In this document: piece by piece, positions 4,165 through 36,743 of the stretch
Layout of the letters: each line of letters opens with the position of its first letter
Position numbering within the stretch: the stretch's first letter is position 1
From: Cunninghamella blakesleeana
Taxonomy: Eukaryota; Mucoromycota; Mucoromycetes; Mucorales; Cunninghamellaceae
Reading direction: 5' to 3'
NCBI GenBank assembly: GCA_017871115.1
Contig: JAFCIZ010000001.1
Location: 1,655,501 to 1,719,500 of the forward strand
Length of the DNA: 64,000 nt
Position numbers and translations under genes: made by a program
The notes under the pieces: model-generated
What the model was told of the DNA's origin: nothing
Seen by the model: the letters and a program-made list of their open reading frames with translations, nothing else
Databases searched by the model: none

Positions 4165-6179
4165 TTATTCTTTTTCAGTAGCAACGGGGCTTGCTACAAC
4201 AGCAGGAACAGCTTCTGGAACCAAATCAACTTTTTCATCAATGACGGTGTTTTTTTGACCTTTTTCAATTCCATCTTCTTGAACGCTGTCTTTTATTTTT
4301 ATTTCATTTCCAAGAGAGTCTAAAATTGTTTTTGGAATGCGAGAAGCGACCCAATTATACCATTCATCGACCGATTTTCCATTCAATATTGCTACAATAA
4401 TAATTGACATATTATCACATCCTACACCACCTACTTCACTATCAGGTGCTAAACAGTGGTCCATAATTGATTCACAAATTTCTGATAATGCTTGTTTTTC
4501 AGCAATTCTAGCGCGAATATAGTCTACTACTTCTTGATTTGTCATACAATCCCAAATACCATCACAGGCTAATACAAAGAATTCATCATCATTTGTAATT
4601 TCATGCTCAATAATATCAGGATCACCTATATAAATATTAATGTAAGGATAAAAATAAAATAAAAATAAACAGTGCATAATAAAATAGAATGAGCAATATT
4701 TTTATTAATATATACACGTTTTTTTCTTTCTTTAATAAAATAAAATAAAACAAAATAATAATGGTAATAATTTTACTTACAGGTTACAATTTGTTCTTCT
4801 GCAGGTAAATGGTCGTTTTGTTTAAATTCAAAATCACCAATGGCGCGAGACAAAGCCAAATTACCTATTTATGTGACAATCAAATATATAATTATAAAAA
4901 TAATCGATGATTAAAGTTAAAAAAAAGTCTCGTAGTCCATTGTGCTGTTTATCTAGTTCTTATAAATTGAATTACCATTAACTCGTCCAAATTCAACAAA
5001 ACCGCCAGCAGCAATAATCCGTTGTGATTCTAAGCGATCTACAGGCTTGTGATCGTAAGATAAAGCTTTACTGGTACCATCAACACTAATAATTCCTCGT
5101 GAATCACCAGCGTTAGCCTAAATAATTTATATATAAAAAATAAAAAATGCGTTTAAAAAAAGAAGGTGAATAATTACAAATATATAACGATAAAAGCAAA
5201 TGATGTTTATTATAGTGTTGGTTATTACTTACCACAAATATTTTGTTATCAGGTGTTACAAGAGCAGTAACGGCCGTGCATCCAGAGGGATCATAAGTAA
5301 AGTTTTGATCTATTTAAAATAATCAAAGCGTTGTTGTACTTAATAAACTCATAGTTTGTGTTACAGTAAATATATAAATATATCTTTTTTTTTCGTTTGT
5401 TGATTTTTATTTTCCAGTTTGGTGCATGAGTGTAATATGATTTTTCTTCCTTTACCATTTTTCAATTCCTTATCAATAGTTAAAAAAGCATCTTTTAAGG
5501 CTTCACGATATTGCTTTTTATCAAAAAATGAACTTTCTCGAACTTTGCGATGTAAAATCTCGCCAGTATATTCTGCAACAGTTGATCCTATATAAATTTT
5601 AAAATATTAATAGTAATAAAGAAATATACTGATTAATATTAGTTACCATCATATCAACATTTATAAATATATATATACATCTAGCTTTACCTCCATGGCC
5701 ATCATAAACACCAAAGAAACTAGCATCTGTATCTTCTAATTTTAATATTGCAGCATGAGCATCTTCCATAGCTATATTCAAATTAACAAAACGCATATAT
5801 AATTAATAGTTTTTCTCTTTCCTTTATTTTTTTTTTTTCGAAATAATTATAATATTCTTGGTACATGAAATGTTTTTAAAGCAGGCATAAATGATAATAA
5901 TAATAATAAAGTAAAAAAAAAAGACTTACTTAATCTCCATCCTTGCATACTTTTTTTCATAAGTGTTATCCATGTTTTTTTTTTTAAGATAAAATAATAA
6001 ACATAATAATAAATAATAAATATATTAAGTAAACTATTTGAAATTGCCTCAAATTTCCTTAGTTTCAATTGATTTTTTTATATTATTTTAGTTTACCATG
6101 AAAGACCAAATAAGTATTTATCATTTGAATCGCTATGTGATTTTTTATCGATTATTGGTTCTGATAAAGTTTGTCCCAT
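4165..6179 (-). CDS. PP2C-type Mg/Mn-dependent protein phosphatase (Ptc2/Ptc3 type)
   Basis: Eight exons on the minus strand: 6179-6097, 5949-5930, 5771-5691, 5587-5456, 5309-5233, 5117-4976, 4864-4781 and 4625-4165, giving 359 residues. The start is MGQTLSEP, typical of the Ptc2/3 group, with Gly2 as a possible myristoylation site. All PP2C motifs follow in order: MQGWR and MEDAH near residues 29-40, VYDGHGG at 56-62, ANAGDSR, DHKP, SRAIGDF, ACDGIWD and CDNMS. These carry the metal-binding Asp residues. The tail after the catalytic domain is acidic and Val/Ala/Pro-rich. In yeasts these enzymes dephosphorylate stress-activated MAP kinases and checkpoint kinases. Exon 2 is only 20 nt and encodes the conserved MQGWRL motif, which makes the phase assignment secure. 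Confidence 0.93.
5930..5949 (-). other. 20-nt microexon of the PP2C gene
   Basis: Flanked by AG and GTAAGT on the minus strand. It supplies the last base of Cys28, the six residues MQGWRL and the first base of Thr35. The conserved PP2C motif MQGWR(L/P)TMEDAH is only restored if this exon is included. Confidence 0.85.
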
Positions 6180-28573: not shown

Positions 28574-28858
28574 TTATAAATATATGTATATAAAAAGCGT
28601 AAGTTAAGAAAAAGCAAAAAAAAAAAAAAAGAAATAGAAATATAGATCACTTTGTACTTTAAATTTTAAATCCGACAAAAAAATATCGTGACCATTAATA
28701 TTTTTTTTTAAAATTCAATTTTTTTTTTCACCTATTTCTCTTTTTTACACCACCTTATAATTTTTTAAACTTTTGTTGTTTTTATTTTTATTTTTAAAAG
28801 TGTAGCTTAAAAAATAAAAATTTATTTGACAGATACCAAATAAAAAATAAAAATAAAA

Positions 28859-30112
28859 ATGTTAAGGCTTGGAGCTAAAAGGTTTCTTCAAGTAAATATT
28901 CAACAAAAACAACGCTTATTAGCAGTTCCTAATCAATGTCAACAAACACAACTTTTAACACATGCCCTGAAACAATGGACACCTTTCCGATCATTCAACA
29001 GTAGTAAAAAAGCTTTTATGGAAGGAACCAGTCATACCTCTTCTTCTTCAACACAAGCTGGTGCAGAATTTGTAGGCGGATTTAGTACACATGGAAATAT
29101 ACTTGGAAATGCCAAAAACCTATCAGCACCTTCAACACAATTTAAAACCAAAAAACCTACTACACCCGGTAAACGTTGGTTAAAACGAGTCCCTCGTGAT
29201 CATTTATATAAAGGCAAAGCCGTTCGTTCTTTAACTTTAGCTAAACGTAGTACTGGTGGACGTAATAATACAGGTCGTATCACTATTCGTCATCGTGGTG
29301 GAGGTCATAAACGCCGTATTCGTATCCTTGACTGGCATCGTATGGTATCTGGAGAACAACAAGTACTTCGTTTAGAACATGATCCTGGTAGAACCGCTTG
29401 GATTGCTTTATTACGTCATGAAGAAACTGGTAAATTATCTTATATCATTGCTCCTGAAGGATTAAAGCCTGGTGATAAAGTCATTAGTTATCGTGCTGAA
29501 GCAAAAGAACAATCAAAATTACAACAACAACAATTAAAAAAATTACAACAACAACAAGAAGATAAAGAAAATGGATTAATAGCAGAAAATGACCAACTCA
29601 TTAAAGATAACCAAGAGGAAGAGGAAGGTGAACATAGTATTACACGTACAGCTGCTATTGATATTGGTAATTGTATGCCTTTAAAAATGATACCTGTAGG
29701 TACAATTATTCATAATATCGGTTTAAAACGTGATGGCCCTGGTATTATTGCTCGTTCTGCAGGTACTTATGCCCAATTAATTCAAACTGGAGAAACTGGT
29801 TATGCCCAAGTAAGATTATCAAGTGGTGAAGTACGTTTAATTCCTGTCGATGCTTGTGCTACAATAGGTGCTGTCAGTAATCCTGACCATCAACATGAAA
29901 TGTTAGGTAAGGCCGGTAGATCAAGATGGTTAGGTATTCGTCCTACCGTAAGAGGTATGGCAATGAACGCCTGCGACCATCCTTTAGGCGGGGGTCGTGG
30001 GAAGTCAAAAGGTAATAAAGATCCTCGTTCTCCTTGGGGTGTTTTATCTAAAGGTGGTAAAACGAGAAAAACACCTAATGCATTTGTCGTTAAACCAAGG
30101 CCTAGACGTTAA
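28859..30112 (+). CDS. RML2: Mitochondrial large-subunit ribosomal protein uL2m
   Basis: One uninterrupted frame of 417 residues in an otherwise intron-rich region. The first 90 or so residues are basic, Gln/Ser-rich and fit a mitochondrial targeting sequence. The uL2 signature blocks follow: KRSTGGRNNTGRITIRHRGGGHKRR (split here as STGGRNN and RHRGGGHKRR), then IPVGTIIHNI, ARSAGTYAQL and the C-terminal peptidyl-transferase loop HPLGGGRGKSKG with the conserved His. A Gln/Glu-rich insertion of about 55 residues sits between VISYRAE and DIGNCMPL. The protein is near the peptidyl-transferase centre of the mitoribosome. Start: the first ATG of the frame. Confidence is high. Confidence 0.96.
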   Translation: MLRLGAKRFLQVNIQQKQRLLAVPNQCQQTQLLTHALKQWTPFRSFNSSKKAFMEGTSHTSSSSTQAGAEFVGGFSTHGNILGNAKNLSAPSTQFKTKKPTTPGKRWLKRVPRDHLYKGKAVRSLTLAKRSTGGRNNTGRITIRHRGGGHKRRIRILDWHRMVSGEQQVLRLEHDPGRTAWIALLRHEETGKLSYIIAPEGLKPGDKVISYRAEAKEQSKLQQQQLKKLQQQQEDKENGLIAENDQLIKDNQEEEEGEHSITRTAAIDIGNCMPLKMIPVGTIIHNIGLKRDGPGIIARSAGTYAQLIQTGETGYAQVRLSSGEVRLIPVDACATIGAVSNPDHQHEMLGKAGRSRWLGIRPTVRGMAMNACDHPLGGGRGKSKGNKDPRSPWGVLSKGGKTRKTPNAFVVKPRPRR

Positions 30113-30923: not shown

Positions 30924-31054
<131 letters not shown>

Positions 31055-31220
31055 TTTTCATTTTATCATAGAGCGTTATTTAATAAAAAAAAATACAACT
31101 ACAGCAAAAAATATAAGAGTTTAAAATTTTTTTTGTAATAATAATTATATTTTTTAATCATATTTTTATCGCTCTTTACCCTTTTATAATTAAGAAAATA
31201 AGCTCAAACCTACTTTTGCT
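31055..31220. repeat. Left arm of an inverted repeat flanking the homing-endonuclease gene
   Basis: Starts TTTTCATTTTATCATAGAGC and contains the non-repetitive core TACAACTACAGC. It aligns with the reverse complement of 35193-35355 over its whole length, with roughly 80-85% matching bases by eye. The core is not low complexity, so the match is not chance A/T similarity. Confidence 0.85.
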
Positions 31221-31369
31221 AAATATTTTGCTTTTTTTGCCACCTTTAAGTCTATTTTTTATCGCTTTGTTCTACATGATTTACTAAAAGCCAATTAAAA
31301 TAGTGAAAAAAGTAAGGCTATTAGGTATAAAATTACAGCCTTCAATATTTAAATGGAGTGCTTCATTTA

Positions 31370-34300
31370 TTACTCATTCATGTGGCGATCCAAGTTATCT
31401 TTACGAGTGAATGCTGCATCACAGTTTGGACATTTAAATGGTTTTATCTATACCAATAAAATAACAAATGTACCAGTATGGTATATAAATACAACTATTT
31501 CAAAGAAATACCAATTAAGTAAAATAAAATTATCAAAACTATTGTTTAAAGCCTACGTCAGTGTGTGTTAATGTGTGTCTGTCATGGTGACTTTTATATC
31601 TTGAGTTAAAACCACATTCTTGACAAACAAATCCTTCTTCGTTCTATAATAATATAATCATCCAAATATTAAAAATAATATTAATAATGATGATGGCGAT
31701 GGTGCAAAAAATAAGTAGATAATAATAATCAGCCAAAACAATTGAAAAGAGTAAAAATATTAAATAAAACTTACATCATGAACATTACTGACGTGTTCCA
31801 TTAATAACTCTTTCAATTGGTATTCTTGTGAGCATTTCTTGTATTTACATTTGAACATATACATTTGCTATTTAAATCAAGTCAAATAAAAATAAAAAAA
31901 TCATTTCATTCAATAGGCTAATGACCCCATTTTTATATATTTATTTTATAACTATACTGTATTAGTATATGTATATATACTATATTAAATGATTTGTGAA
32001 TGGTGTATTACATGCTTTCCACTATTTATATGGTAACGAAGACTTGAACTGAAACTAAAAGTCTTGATACATTCTTTATTAGGGCATTCAAGCTTTGGAT
32101 ACTATAATATATTAAATTAAAGAGAATGATGGAAAAAGAAATATAATCTATTATCGCTAAATAATAACACTATTGGAATATTATTTAAACTTTATATAAC
32201 TTACATCATGTTGGTCTCTAAGATGATCTTCCAGAGTAATATTCTTAATAAATAAAAAATCACAGTTTTCCTCGGAACAAGTTTTATATAGCTTGTTATG
32301 GTAAAAACAAAATTAAATAAATTAAATAAATATGCAATTCTATATATATTTTATAATGACCTATTTCAAATACCTTTTTTATTGAGGAAGGCATAATTAA
32401 GTTTTCATTTATTTGTCGAGTAACTGCTAGCTTTGAATATTGCCCTATTATTTTGTGTTCATTTGATAAATCCGTAGATGCTTGAATATTTTTCAGTCTT
32501 TCAGTAAATTGAATTAAGTCCATATCATCGCAGAATTCAATTGGTTCCAATTGACAGGCTGTAAGCCATTCATTTACAAGAAATATATTAGATTCGTAAT
32601 GGTCTCTATAATATTTTAATACACGACAGCAAAGAAAAAAAAGTTATAAAAATCAATAGAGCATCATATTATATATGTATATATAATATTTTGAAAACAT
32701 ATAATTACTGCCCAATAACTTTAACGAATGGATCGCTTGAATTTCTAGTATATTCATGTATCGTCTTCCGCATATCATAATGTAAACCAAATTTTTTTAT
32801 TGATATGTAACCGTTTTTTAAAAGATAATGTAACATAAGACATTTATGATCTAAAGGGACTTCATCATTGATCATGTTTTCTAGAACAAATATTGTTAGA
32901 TACTTGTTGGTTACATTGGTAAAAGGTATATACAAGTGGCTAGGTCGAACACTACGTTCATCTGCTATGTAGTTGTATTCCATTAAGTCAGAGTTGTCTG
33001 AATCATTACCTTCATCAATGTCTGCTTTCTTTCCATAATCATGAATTGTGCTGTTACCATTTATATATATTAATTTATCTTGAATCCATGTTAAAAAGGC
33101 TGTATCTCTTGAGCATAAATATATGCCAGATGCATGTGTATGTCTTAAACGTTCATTAGCTTCTGAGCACTCTCTCCCAATCCACCCATCTGCCGTAAAG
33201 TACCCCAAGATTACTGCAAATAAAGCTACTGAATACTGATAATAATCTTCATGTAACTTAACTTGCTCAATAAAATCTTCATAGCTAATATTGGTGTTTT
33301 CAGAATCATGTAGTGAAGTAGGAATTTGTGGCGACGGTGGTAATAGTTTCGTATCAAGTTTATTAGTATCACAATTAATCAAGTTTGAAGAGGGTCCGCC
33401 AAAACTTTCTATTATATGAAGAATCTTTTCATCTCTGATAATCCATCTAACACAGCCAAGCTTTCCACCATTGTATTTACTCACCTTTTTGTTGTCAGTA
33501 ATTTGAAATCTGAATGAATGTAAAAACAAACATACAGAAGAATATAATAAGGGTTGATTGTAATGATATTAGTAGGGGTGCCAATATACCAAGTATTTTT
33601 TTTATTATAAAATCTTAACAATATTTAGTTGCAATATAAAATATACTCAAACCTTAAATGAATCCTGGTAACACCAATTTTAATTAGTAATTTGTAAAGA
33701 AAGAGAACTGAAGTGGATCTAAAACTAATTCCCATAACAGTACTGCCATCAAGGTGCATCCCATCACCAAAGTATAATCCAAGAAAGAGAAACATAAGTA
33801 ATGACCTTGTATTGAAAAATGAAGAGTCTAACTTGTATATACCATTTGGATTTAATACGATAGTATTAGAATCATTTTTTTCCTTTATATCTAATGATAA
33901 AATAATAATAATAATAAAATAAACTGAACCTTTATACTATGCTTTATACTGTTCAAGTTTTTTATTTTTTTATTTTTATTTTTTTATTTTTTTATTTATT
34001 TTGCATAATTGCTATTTTTATCTTCAGTTAGAATAGTAAAAGTATTAGTAATATTAGACTTACCAGTGATTTCAATTTTTCCTTTACCTTTAATGATGGA
34101 TGATTCGATTTCATCTTTTAATGTAATAGGTACATTTTTATTGCGTGTATTCATATCGGATGTATCTTGATCGGTTATGTTAATACCAGATTCAAATTCT
34201 TGAGAAAGTAGGGTAATGGATGTAGATGAAGGTGTTGAACTAGATTCAGCAAATGAAGTAGACATTGAGGATGTAGAAGGTGCGTATAATTTTTCTACTT

Positions 34301-34595
34301 TTATTTTTTTTCTGGTAGTGGTTGTTGTAAAAGAAATATCTTTTTTTATTCGTTTGCCTTTTTCGGGTACGGGCAGGAAATCGTCATCACTAGAATAGTT
34401 ATTGCTGTACTCCTCAATTGATTCAAGTTTATTTTCATCATCACTAGAATAGTTTTTAGCTTCAGATTCATTTGTGATTAAGCTACTTGAGGTAGCTTGG
34501 ACTTTGTTTGAGTCCATGGTATGAATATTTTCTGTTGGTGGATTAATTGTAGTATTTCTTTTTTTAATTCTTGCTGAACGGCGTGGTGCAGTCAT
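31370..34595 (-). CDS. LAGLIDADG homing endonuclease-like protein with five C2H2 zinc fingers
   Basis: Nine exons: 34595-34064, 33890-33653, 33509-32709, 32605-32374, 32291-32205, 32101-32012, 31867-31775, 31643-31557 and 31447-31370, giving 745 residues. Residues 1-177 are Ser/Thr-rich and disordered, starting with a basic stretch (RRSARIKKR) that looks nuclear. Motif 1 is LFLGLYFGDG (about 212-221) and motif 2 is VILGYFTADG (about 356-365). Both keep the acidic residue that binds the catalytic metal in this family. Between and after them are the mixed alpha/beta pieces expected of a two-domain enzyme. Residues 602-745 are five C2H2 fingers, one per exon, all in phase 0; the last lacks its second His. 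The order resembles yeast HO endonuclease (intein-derived LAGLIDADG plus zinc fingers), but no HINT splicing motif is visible. It may be an active homing enzyme, a domesticated DNA-binding protein, or a mobile-element gene. Confidence 0.82.
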
Positions 34596-35192
34596 TGTAA
34601 TAAAATAAAATAATGTATTAACTTTAAAAGAAAAAGAGAGAATAAAGATAAAAAAGAAATGAAAAAATAAAAAGAAAAAAATAGCTATATGTATATATAA
34701 AAAAAGTAACTGATTTTGAATTTTTTTGCATATATTTATGTAGGTGCAGTTTTTTAAATGACTTTAGACAAGCTTTTTCTTTATCACTTTTATATATGTA
34801 TTTTTAACCATATATATTAATTGTTTTTTAGTTCATTGTTCTTTTTCATATAACTATAGTAACTTGTTTTTAATTATCAATTAATAGTATTGCATTATAT
34901 TTGCTATTAGTATTTATCTTTTTTATTTCTATTTTTTATTAAAATGGGCCCTGATTGCTTTATTTTATTTTATTTTATTTATTGTGTCTTAGGTTCAATT
35001 GTATAGTCTTATTGGTCTAATTTTTTATTTCTTTGTCTATATTCAAGTATAAAATATTATTATTTTATTTTATATCATGCAAACAAAAAAAAAAATCTTA
35101 AATTAATATATTTATTTATTTTTATTTTTATTTTTTGCTTTCGTATGCAATAACTTAGTGCGTTTACGCTATAATAAAAAACTGTTTTAAAA
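34596..35192. other. 5' flank of the homing-endonuclease gene
   Basis: Presumed promoter region, T-rich on the plus strand. No other gene is seen before the right inverted repeat. Confidence 0.5.
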
Positions 35193-35353
35193 GTAGTGAA
35201 AATAGGTTTGCACTCATTTTATTAATAAAAGGGTATATAGCAATGCATATATGTTTAAAAAATATAATTATCATTACAAAATAAAACTTAAACTCTTATA
35301 TTTTTTGCTGTAGTTGTATTTTTTTATTAAATAGCGCTCTATAATAAAATGAA

Positions 35354-35355
<2 letters not shown>
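35193..35355. repeat. Right arm of the inverted repeat
   Basis: The reverse complement matches 31055-31220 in the order TTTTCATTTTAT, GAGCG, TACAACTACAGC, TATAAGAGTTTAA, GTAATNATAATTATATTTTTT, ACCCTTTTAT and CAAACCTA. Differences are scattered substitutions and small gaps. Confidence 0.85.
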
Positions 35356-35385
<30 letters not shown>

Positions 35386-35476: not shown

Positions 35477-35906
35477 AAGCTGTACACATTTTTAACTGTA
35501 ACATACAAGTATGTTAAAAAAATGGGGAAGATAAATATCAAGATAAAATATTTAATAGTAATAATCAAGTTTTTTTTTTTTTTTTAAAAAAAAAAAAGAA
35601 CGATAATTAATAAATAAATATATAAGGATATAATTACTTTTTTATCAGATATATCACTTTAGATTAAATAAAAGATTAAGTCAAAATTTGATGTTTTAAA
35701 TAAATATATTTATTTAGTTTAATTTGGCAGGTTCTTTTTAAAGAAAATGCGGCGTTTTAATTTAAATAAAATTCAGTGAGACCACGTAATAATAAGAATA
35801 ATAATAACAAAAATCAAGTCCGGTCAATTTTTATAATTTTCCTCTCTTTTTTTCTTTTTTTATTTTTTTAAAAAAAAAAAGAAAAAACTCTAATTACAAC
35901 TACAAC
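35477..35906. other. Upstream region of the GT31 gene
   Basis: Holds a T16/A12 palindrome at 35570-35597 and a GCGGCG patch near 35750. No gene is seen. Confidence 0.5.
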
Positions 35907-36743
35907 ATGAAAGCATTAATATTAGTGTTTATTCTCTTACCCTTTATTTATTATTATGGAAAATATATTTATGTAATGAATGCGCCTAATATGGGTGTTC
36001 CTGTTGATTGGGAATGCAGCTATCCTGTAAAAACTAAACCATACAATCCTAAAATATTTATAGGAGTATTCACAATTGAAGACAATTATTATCGAAGACA
36101 AATTATACGGGATACTTATTTAAAATATAAAAAGACCGACGACATCATATTTAAGTTTGTTATTGGTAGAACAAAAACGAAAAAAATACTAGAGGAAATG
36201 GATCGTTATCATGATATATTACCTTTGGATATAGAAGAAAATATGAACTATGGGAAAACGTATGAATATTTTGCAACTATATCTGAAACCTTTAAAAATT
36301 ATCCACTTGATTTTGTTATTAAAGCAGATGATGATTCTTATCTTAATCTTGATCTTATATTTCAAGATCTTTCCATAACACCTAGTAATATGACCTATTG
36401 GGGTTATTTGGTTGGTGATACATTTATGGGTGGCGAGTGCTATGGACTTTCTTTTGACTTAGTAAATTGGATTAAAAAGTCAAATGTTTCTAGAAAATAT
36501 AAAAATGGACATGAAGATTCTCAAGTACAAAAATGGTTTAATTGGGGTAACATCAACAATAATATCACTTATCAAACTAGAAATTGTTTAATACATGATG
36601 ATCCTTTATCAAACTCTGTATATGCCAAGGAAATAACAGATAAATCCATCGTTGTACATTATATTAAAACAAATAACAGATTTATTAACATATATTATCA
36701 GATGCTAAATTTAACTCATAGTATAGAAACAGCTAATAATTAA
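35907..36743 (+). CDS. GT31-type galactosyltransferase (beta-1,3-GalT fold)
   Basis: Single exon, 278 residues. Residues 2-22 are a hydrophobic signal-anchor, so this is a Golgi type II membrane protein. Family GT31 features are in order: IGVFTIEDNYYRRQIIRDTY (compare the family's R..IR.TW), FVIGRT, DIEENMNYGKTYEYF, the metal-binding DxD as KADDDSYL (Asp 141-143), GGECYGLS, and the GHEDSQV motif corresponding to the catalytic ED(V/C) motif. It should transfer a sugar (galactose or a related hexose) from a UDP-sugar to glycans of secreted or wall proteins. Donor and acceptor cannot be told from sequence. It is shorter than animal members and has no introns. The start is the first ATG and opens directly into the anchor. 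Confidence 0.88.
   Translation: MKALILVFILLPFIYYYGKYIYVMNAPNMGVPVDWECSYPVKTKPYNPKIFIGVFTIEDNYYRRQIIRDTYLKYKKTDDIIFKFVIGRTKTKKILEEMDRYHDILPLDIEENMNYGKTYEYFATISETFKNYPLDFVIKADDDSYLNLDLIFQDLSITPSNMTYWGYLVGDTFMGGECYGLSFDLVNWIKKSNVSRKYKNGHEDSQVQKWFNWGNINNNITYQTRNCLIHDDPLSNSVYAKEITDKSIVVHYIKTNNRFINIYYQMLNLTHSIETANN

Follow-up and report, generated by a model that had tools for sequence, protein, structure and literature searches.

A predicted nuclear gene of Cunninghamella blakesleeana combining a divergent LAGLIDADG-type domain with C2H2 zinc fingers and a RAD16-like first exon

The window analysed here, that is, the whole 64,000-nucleotide stretch of C. blakesleeana DNA, carries a gene (gene A) whose predicted protein unites a RAD16-like N-terminus, a very divergent two-repeat domain of the LAGLIDADG type and a C-terminal row of C2H2 zinc fingers. 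The preferred reading is that of a host-resident nuclear DNA-binding protein that has most probably remained an endonuclease; it would be HO-like and would have been fused independently of WHO and of HO, the enzyme of mating-type switching in Saccharomyces and its relatives. A probability of roughly 0.6 is assigned to this reading in its hedged form, and, since the reading of a non-cutting protein overlaps with it, the confidences attached to the different readings do not sum to one. According to the proposed scheme, the two divergent repeats in one chain would form a monomeric unit recognizing and cutting DNA, and the C-terminal fingers would add affinity for the target or a choice of target, as is thought for the tail of HO and WHO. 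The RAD16-like N-terminus, together with the 5' flank, would supply nuclear localization and perhaps expression. The fusion would have been kept, presumably under purifying selection, for so long that A and B could diverge as paralogues and a further copy could decay.

When the minus-strand exons were joined and translated, a single open frame of 745 amino acids with a stop at 31370 was obtained, and the nine-exon model of an earlier reading made from the letters alone (the sequence-only reading) was reproduced. The GT-AG rule is obeyed at all eight introns; the weakest junction of the model is that of intron 4, which ends in AAG and not in CAG or TAG (exon positions in Table 1). Exons 5 to 9 encode one finger apiece, the fifth being truncated, and are separated by phase-0 introns. 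On this prediction, gene A is an intact split gene in the nuclear genome. It lies between an ORF at 28844-30109 and an ORF at 35808-36740, which, judging from their translations, would be uL2m-like and glycosyltransferase-like, respectively.

Table 1. Positions of gene A, its predicted parts and the neighbouring repeats in the window
Feature	Position	Strand	Basis or remark
Gene A: RAD16-like N-terminus / LAGLIDADG-type / C2H2 protein, 745 aa, nine exons	31370..34595	-	spliced translation and relatives
Exon 1, coding for residues 1-177, a basic N-terminus rich in Ser and Thr	34064..34595	-	RAD16-like exon homology
Exon 2	33653..33890	-	spliced translation
Exon 3	32709..33509	-	spliced translation
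LAGLIDADG-like domain with two repeats, encoded by exons 2 and 3	32709..33890	-	hhalign against archaeal intein/I-DmoI profile
Exon 4: linker from LAGLIDADG region to fingers	32374..32605	-	spliced translation; joined to fingers in P0002
Exon 5	32205..32291	-	spliced translation
Exon 6	32012..32101	-	spliced translation
Exon 7	31775..31867	-	spliced translation
Exon 8	31557..31643	-	spliced translation
Exon 9	31370..31447	-	spliced translation
LAGLIDADG motif 1 FLGLYFGDG, residues 213-221, exon 2	33760..33786	-	FLGFFCGDG in paralogue B
LAGLIDADG motif 2 ILGYFTADG, residues 357-365, exon 3	33185..33211	-	kept in P0001; LLGFILADG in B and P0003
Zinc finger 1, residues 606-629, exon 5	32208..32279	-	C2H2 pattern
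Zinc finger 2, residues 636-660, exon 6	32012..32086	-	C2H2 pattern
Zinc finger 3, residues 667-690, exon 7	31778..31849	-	C2H2 pattern
Zinc finger 4, residues 698-718, exon 8	31563..31625	-	C2H2 pattern
Truncated zinc finger 5, exon 9: C, C, one H	31382..31432	-	second His absent
5' flank and exon 1 start, start codon included, common to A and RAD16-like gene	34540..34660	-	77%, query bases 2-112 of 121
Dispersed repeat copy (context, not part of gene)	31044..31221	+	inverted with respect to copy at 35194-35366
Dispersed repeat, second copy (context)	35194..35366	-	same repeat as 31044-31221

Monomeric LAGLIDADG enzymes possess two motifs, each with a conserved acidic residue, at a distance of about 90-150 residues. 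The pair of motifs noticed in the sequence-only reading is found in A at the spacing of 144 residues given there, the spacing in B being 112 residues, and the acidic residue it had pointed out, an aspartate, is present in both motifs of A and also of B; in the relatives P0001 and P0003 the acidic residue is found in motif 2. The claim that such a double motif and C2H2 fingers occur in one nuclear gene was borne out, albeit with four complete fingers instead of five. In the fifth, C726, C729 and H742 are followed by the stop, so that the second His is missing; even so, residues 724-744 are matched by PF00096. In A this profile reached 31.6 bits against a cut-off of 25.2, and for the C-terminus of A its E value was 1.6e-10.

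The Pfam comparison suggested at the outset gave the fingers and stayed below the cut-off for the nuclease part: LAGLIDADG_3 (PF14528) scored 14.1 bits in A against a cut-off of 22.5 (E=0.059), with no stretch significant alone. In neither P0001, nor the stretch of B scanned, nor the two halves of A scanned apart was a LAGLIDADG profile of Pfam matched; the six-frame scan of the genome gave no match to PF14528, and nothing relevant was found in NCBIfam, PHROGs and PDB sequence searches. Because a direct Pfam match was barely present, profiles were built from LAGLIDADG intein regions collected from eight archaeal genomes, namely, a single-repeat profile of 56 repeats and a two-repeat profile of 15 regions, I-DmoI included. 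They were compared with a family profile made of A, B, P0001 and P0003, three of whose four rows were kept by the hhalign filter.

Against the two-repeat profile of archaeal inteins and I-DmoI, the family profile aligned colinearly over both repeats with a probability of 86.7% and a score of 44.5, the best of 300 column shuffles reaching 24.6 and the reversed profile 13.5. With PI-SceI added to the template, both repeats were again aligned (51.2%, score 35.2; best of 200 shuffles 21.5). The outcome depends on the template, and several scores come close to those of the best shuffles. These are 28.9 for the template without I-DmoI, whose row was removed without realignment or repeated shuffles and where only repeat 2 of A was aligned; 27.1 (30.5%) for the single-repeat profile, again with repeat 2 only; 23.4 for PI-SceI alone; and 26.6 and 21.7 when A or B alone served as query. 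In HMMER searches with the single-repeat profile, B, P0001, A and P0003 scored 10.6, 10.4, 7.4 and 6.3 bits, respectively, motif 1 of A alone -1.4 bits, and the best shuffle among the 25 matches listed (400 shuffles run) 4.4 bits. The absence of any LAGLIDADG profile match, which the sequence-only reading had named as speaking against its proposal, is nearly the case for single sequences, while profile-to-profile comparison including paralogue B aligns both repeats with two of the templates used. Since PF14528 stays below its cut-off, A is termed LAGLIDADG-type on the profile-to-profile evidence and not as a member of the Pfam family. That the predicted protein is a very divergent representative of this type is supported mainly by the profile comparison and by the conservation of both motifs between the distant paralogues A and B. 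With the archaeal intein endonuclease domains and I-DmoI it has in common two repeats in one chain and profile similarity along both; it differs from them in that no intein or organelle context was seen and in that its family lies much further from the archaeal profile than does PI-SceI, with a score of 44.5 against 73.7.

Searches of a set of 5.8 billion proteins gave three relatives, P0001, P0002 and P0003, and no further ones, prokaryotic relatives included; full-length candidates used as queries gave none. Among viral contigs there was no relative of exon 3 or of the A3 alignment, and among phages none of exon 3. P0001, a 245-aa ORF, is 76% identical to exon 3 of A, with motif 2 intact. 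P0002, a 286-aa protein of Cunninghamella echinulata, is 72% identical over 311 columns (28 gaps) corresponding to residues 433-743 of A, of which about 450-468 are unaligned; it joins the end of the LAGLIDADG region to all finger exons, and its last finger likewise ends without the second His. Its annotated start lies downstream of both motifs, so that the nuclease part would be either mis-annotated or decayed in C. echinulata. P0003 (193 aa) is 95.3% identical to exon 2 of B over 192 residues.

Paralogue B was found in the same genome (31.9 Mb in 12 contigs searched). Its model comprises 754 amino acids in nine exons with GT-AG introns, an open frame and both motifs. Three finger-like patterns of B were recognized with a looser pattern than that used for A, and all are below the Pfam cut-offs; short exons of 36 and 48 bases in the finger region encode no finger. 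Over the region compared, A and B are 26% identical, both motifs being among the conserved stretches. They share two introns, one following repeat 1 (HLR|F in A, NLS|F in B) and one beyond the domain (GQ|D in A, AQ|D in B), each in phase 2 in both genes, and the finger introns are of phase 0 in both; B lacks intron 1 of A, which precedes motif 1. A decayed A-like copy with several stops is found at about C1:1571.8-1572.9 kb (about 4298-5363 of locus L051), some 114 kb from A; it was matched by A and not by the stretch of B searched, and it implies that members of the family can die. Open copies in the genome number at least one of A and at least one of B. As P0001 and P0002 share parts of it and the same architecture recurs in paralogue B, the predicted architecture of A is beyond chance. 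The phase-0 layout of the finger exons in A (31382-32279) and B (5502-6480 of L050) would permit an exchange of fingers.

The N-terminus, which had been described as Ser/Thr-rich only, is indeed so, and it proved to be homologous to the first exon of another gene of the same genome (C6:1419467, locus L052). Residues 1-133 of A are 42% identical to the start of that gene, and the protein score of the two first exons is 181, while none of 500 shuffles exceeded 109; for the N-terminus of B the score is 73, the best of 300 shuffles being 92. The C6 gene encodes SNF2 and RING domains according to Pfam and has RAD5 as best PDB sequence match; we call it RAD16-like after its domain order, which is that of RAD16. 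At the DNA level, the local alignment runs from 34727 to 34167 of the window and from 2350 to 2913 of L052, and, apart from A itself, the sequence comprising the 5' flank and the exon 1 start (Table 1) was found nowhere in the genome but at the C6 gene. It was considered as a third paralogue and rejected as such, being the RAD16-like gene with SNF2 and RING. Homology of A to the RAD16-like gene concerns the first exon and the 5' flank; the SNF2 and RING domains carried there were not found in A by Pfam. Because of this homologous exon, A appears to be a chimera drawn from three sources. Most simply, exon 1 would have been acquired by A after the split from B, and from the RAD16-like gene rather than in the reverse direction. 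The shared first exon and 5' flank have the appearance of an exon capture.

Whether A would still cut DNA is judged from the motifs. LAGLIDADG-fold regulators and splicing factors devoid of cleavage exist, and with motif surroundings very divergent from those of known enzymes, A might be a DNA-binding regulator descended from a LAGLIDADG enzyme that has lost cutting. Non-cutting relatives often lack at least one acidic residue, however, while here A and B have each retained it in both motifs despite their low identity, and P0001 and P0003 have it in motif 2. The loss of cutting is considered less likely than its retention, which is favoured because the aspartates of both motifs survive in A and B.

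According to a published account (PMC7282813), HO has kept an intein-like region and has Cys-X-X-Cys fingers that are nearest to Ash1 and of an atypical GATA type. As described in the same account, WHO proteins are fusions of LAGLIDADG and zinc fingers without exteins, and both intact and decayed members of the family are known; most WHO genes are clustered downstream of FBA1, in some cases accompanied by duplicates of its 3' fragments, and WHO10 insertions contain gene fragments (PMC7282813). The family of A is like WHO in this fusion and in comprising decayed as well as intact members. In outline, with an endonuclease-type domain and a zinc-finger tail, A resembles HO; it differs in its classical C2H2 fingers, eight introns, RAD16-like exon 1 and lack of a Hint match. 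With Pfam, no Hint or Hom_end match was obtained in the whole of A at E up to 1, nor in a 350-aa stretch of B lying outside its N-terminus, at E up to 10, which agrees with the earlier observation that no HINT domain is visible and that A is distinct from HO. Having no Hint region, and C2H2 fingers in place of Cys-X-X-Cys fingers like those of GATA and Ash1, the predicted protein falls outside HO/WHO on these two counts, and the LAGLIDADG/C2H2 fusion would apparently have arisen independently of them. Nor does A read as an intein, as Hint is not matched and the domain is followed by the fingers and not by the rest of the RAD16-like protein.

A further reading, which we regard as unlikely, is that of a selfish, WHO-like homing endonuclease gene that would spread by cutting the allele without the gene and being copied there in the course of repair; separate integrations would then have given A, B and the relic. 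It draws on the combination of a LAGLIDADG-like domain and zinc fingers without exteins, as in WHO of Torulaspora and Lachancea, on the decayed copy some 114 kb from A, on the position of B between two tandem genes and on the host exon shared by A, which is reminiscent of the gene fragments in the WHO10 insertions (PMC7282813). Evidence for homing is weak, however: unlike in WHO, no duplicated fragment of either neighbouring ORF tested lies next to A; the uL2m-like and glycosyltransferase-like ORFs gave no second match in the window, and for the latter a weak match was found in L051 (28.8%, E=0.018). The tandem genes around B (C1:201600-214800; L095, L050, L094), which we presume from their translations to be cytochrome P450-like, can be aligned with each other along some 2.4 kb (67.5% DNA identity), and not over a short 3' fragment; B could have been inserted between the two members of a tandem pair, or its location could be coincidental. 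The identity of 26% together with the common intron positions of A and B argues for an old duplication rather than recent spread, and the open copies found number at least one of each. That A is no LAGLIDADG protein at all, but belongs to an unrelated zinc-finger family with two short G-D-G-like motifs similar by chance, is improbable, as the colinear two-repeat alignment lies well above the shuffles with two templates and both motifs belong to the segments that A and B have conserved, even if no curated LAGLIDADG profile exceeds its cut-off and the AlphaFold models (pLDDT 40.4 and 42.2) are too low in confidence to inform on the alpha-beta saddle fold.

Cunninghamella is placed in the Mucoromycota. 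Among the matches listed from literature on LAGLIDADG, zinc fingers, HO/WHO, Mucoromycota and Cunninghamella, a body of text mostly outside the subscription journals, no earlier description of a nuclear family combining LAGLIDADG-type and C2H2 parts was present. If the preferred reading of A as a host-resident, HO-like protein is true, the same two functions would have been fused independently in Mucoromycota, and nuclear homing-type enzymes would have been re-targeted and kept by their hosts more than once. A natural zinc-finger-guided meganuclease would then be at hand for study, and the RAD16-like first exon suggests a route to host expression and nuclear entry. A bolder version, put forward tentatively and with little confidence, would be a second and independent origin of an HO-like system, in which a LAGLIDADG nuclease was joined to C2H2 fingers, received through exon shuffling a 5' end from a RAD16-type repair gene and was domesticated in Mucoromycota for a programmed chromosomal cut, for instance, at a switch or rearrangement locus; A and B would be specialized copies, and the phase-0 finger exons would allow a change of target.

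Inverted repeats lie on either side of the gene (Table 1), and a reading of these as terminal inverted repeats of a transposon was rejected because both belong to a dispersed repeat whose other 14 loci are without a match to A. The repeat occurs in at least 16 places in the genome, the flanking pair included, and A-like coding sequence was absent from the other 14 in a tblastn search of protein A over about 1.5 kb on each side. Identity between the two flanking copies is 86%, and between one of these two and the other copies it is 71-81% over the main match, the flanking pair being closer to each other than to the rest. Both adjoin TTA microsatellites, and several copies of the repeat share, as judged by eye, sequence upstream of the microsatellite.
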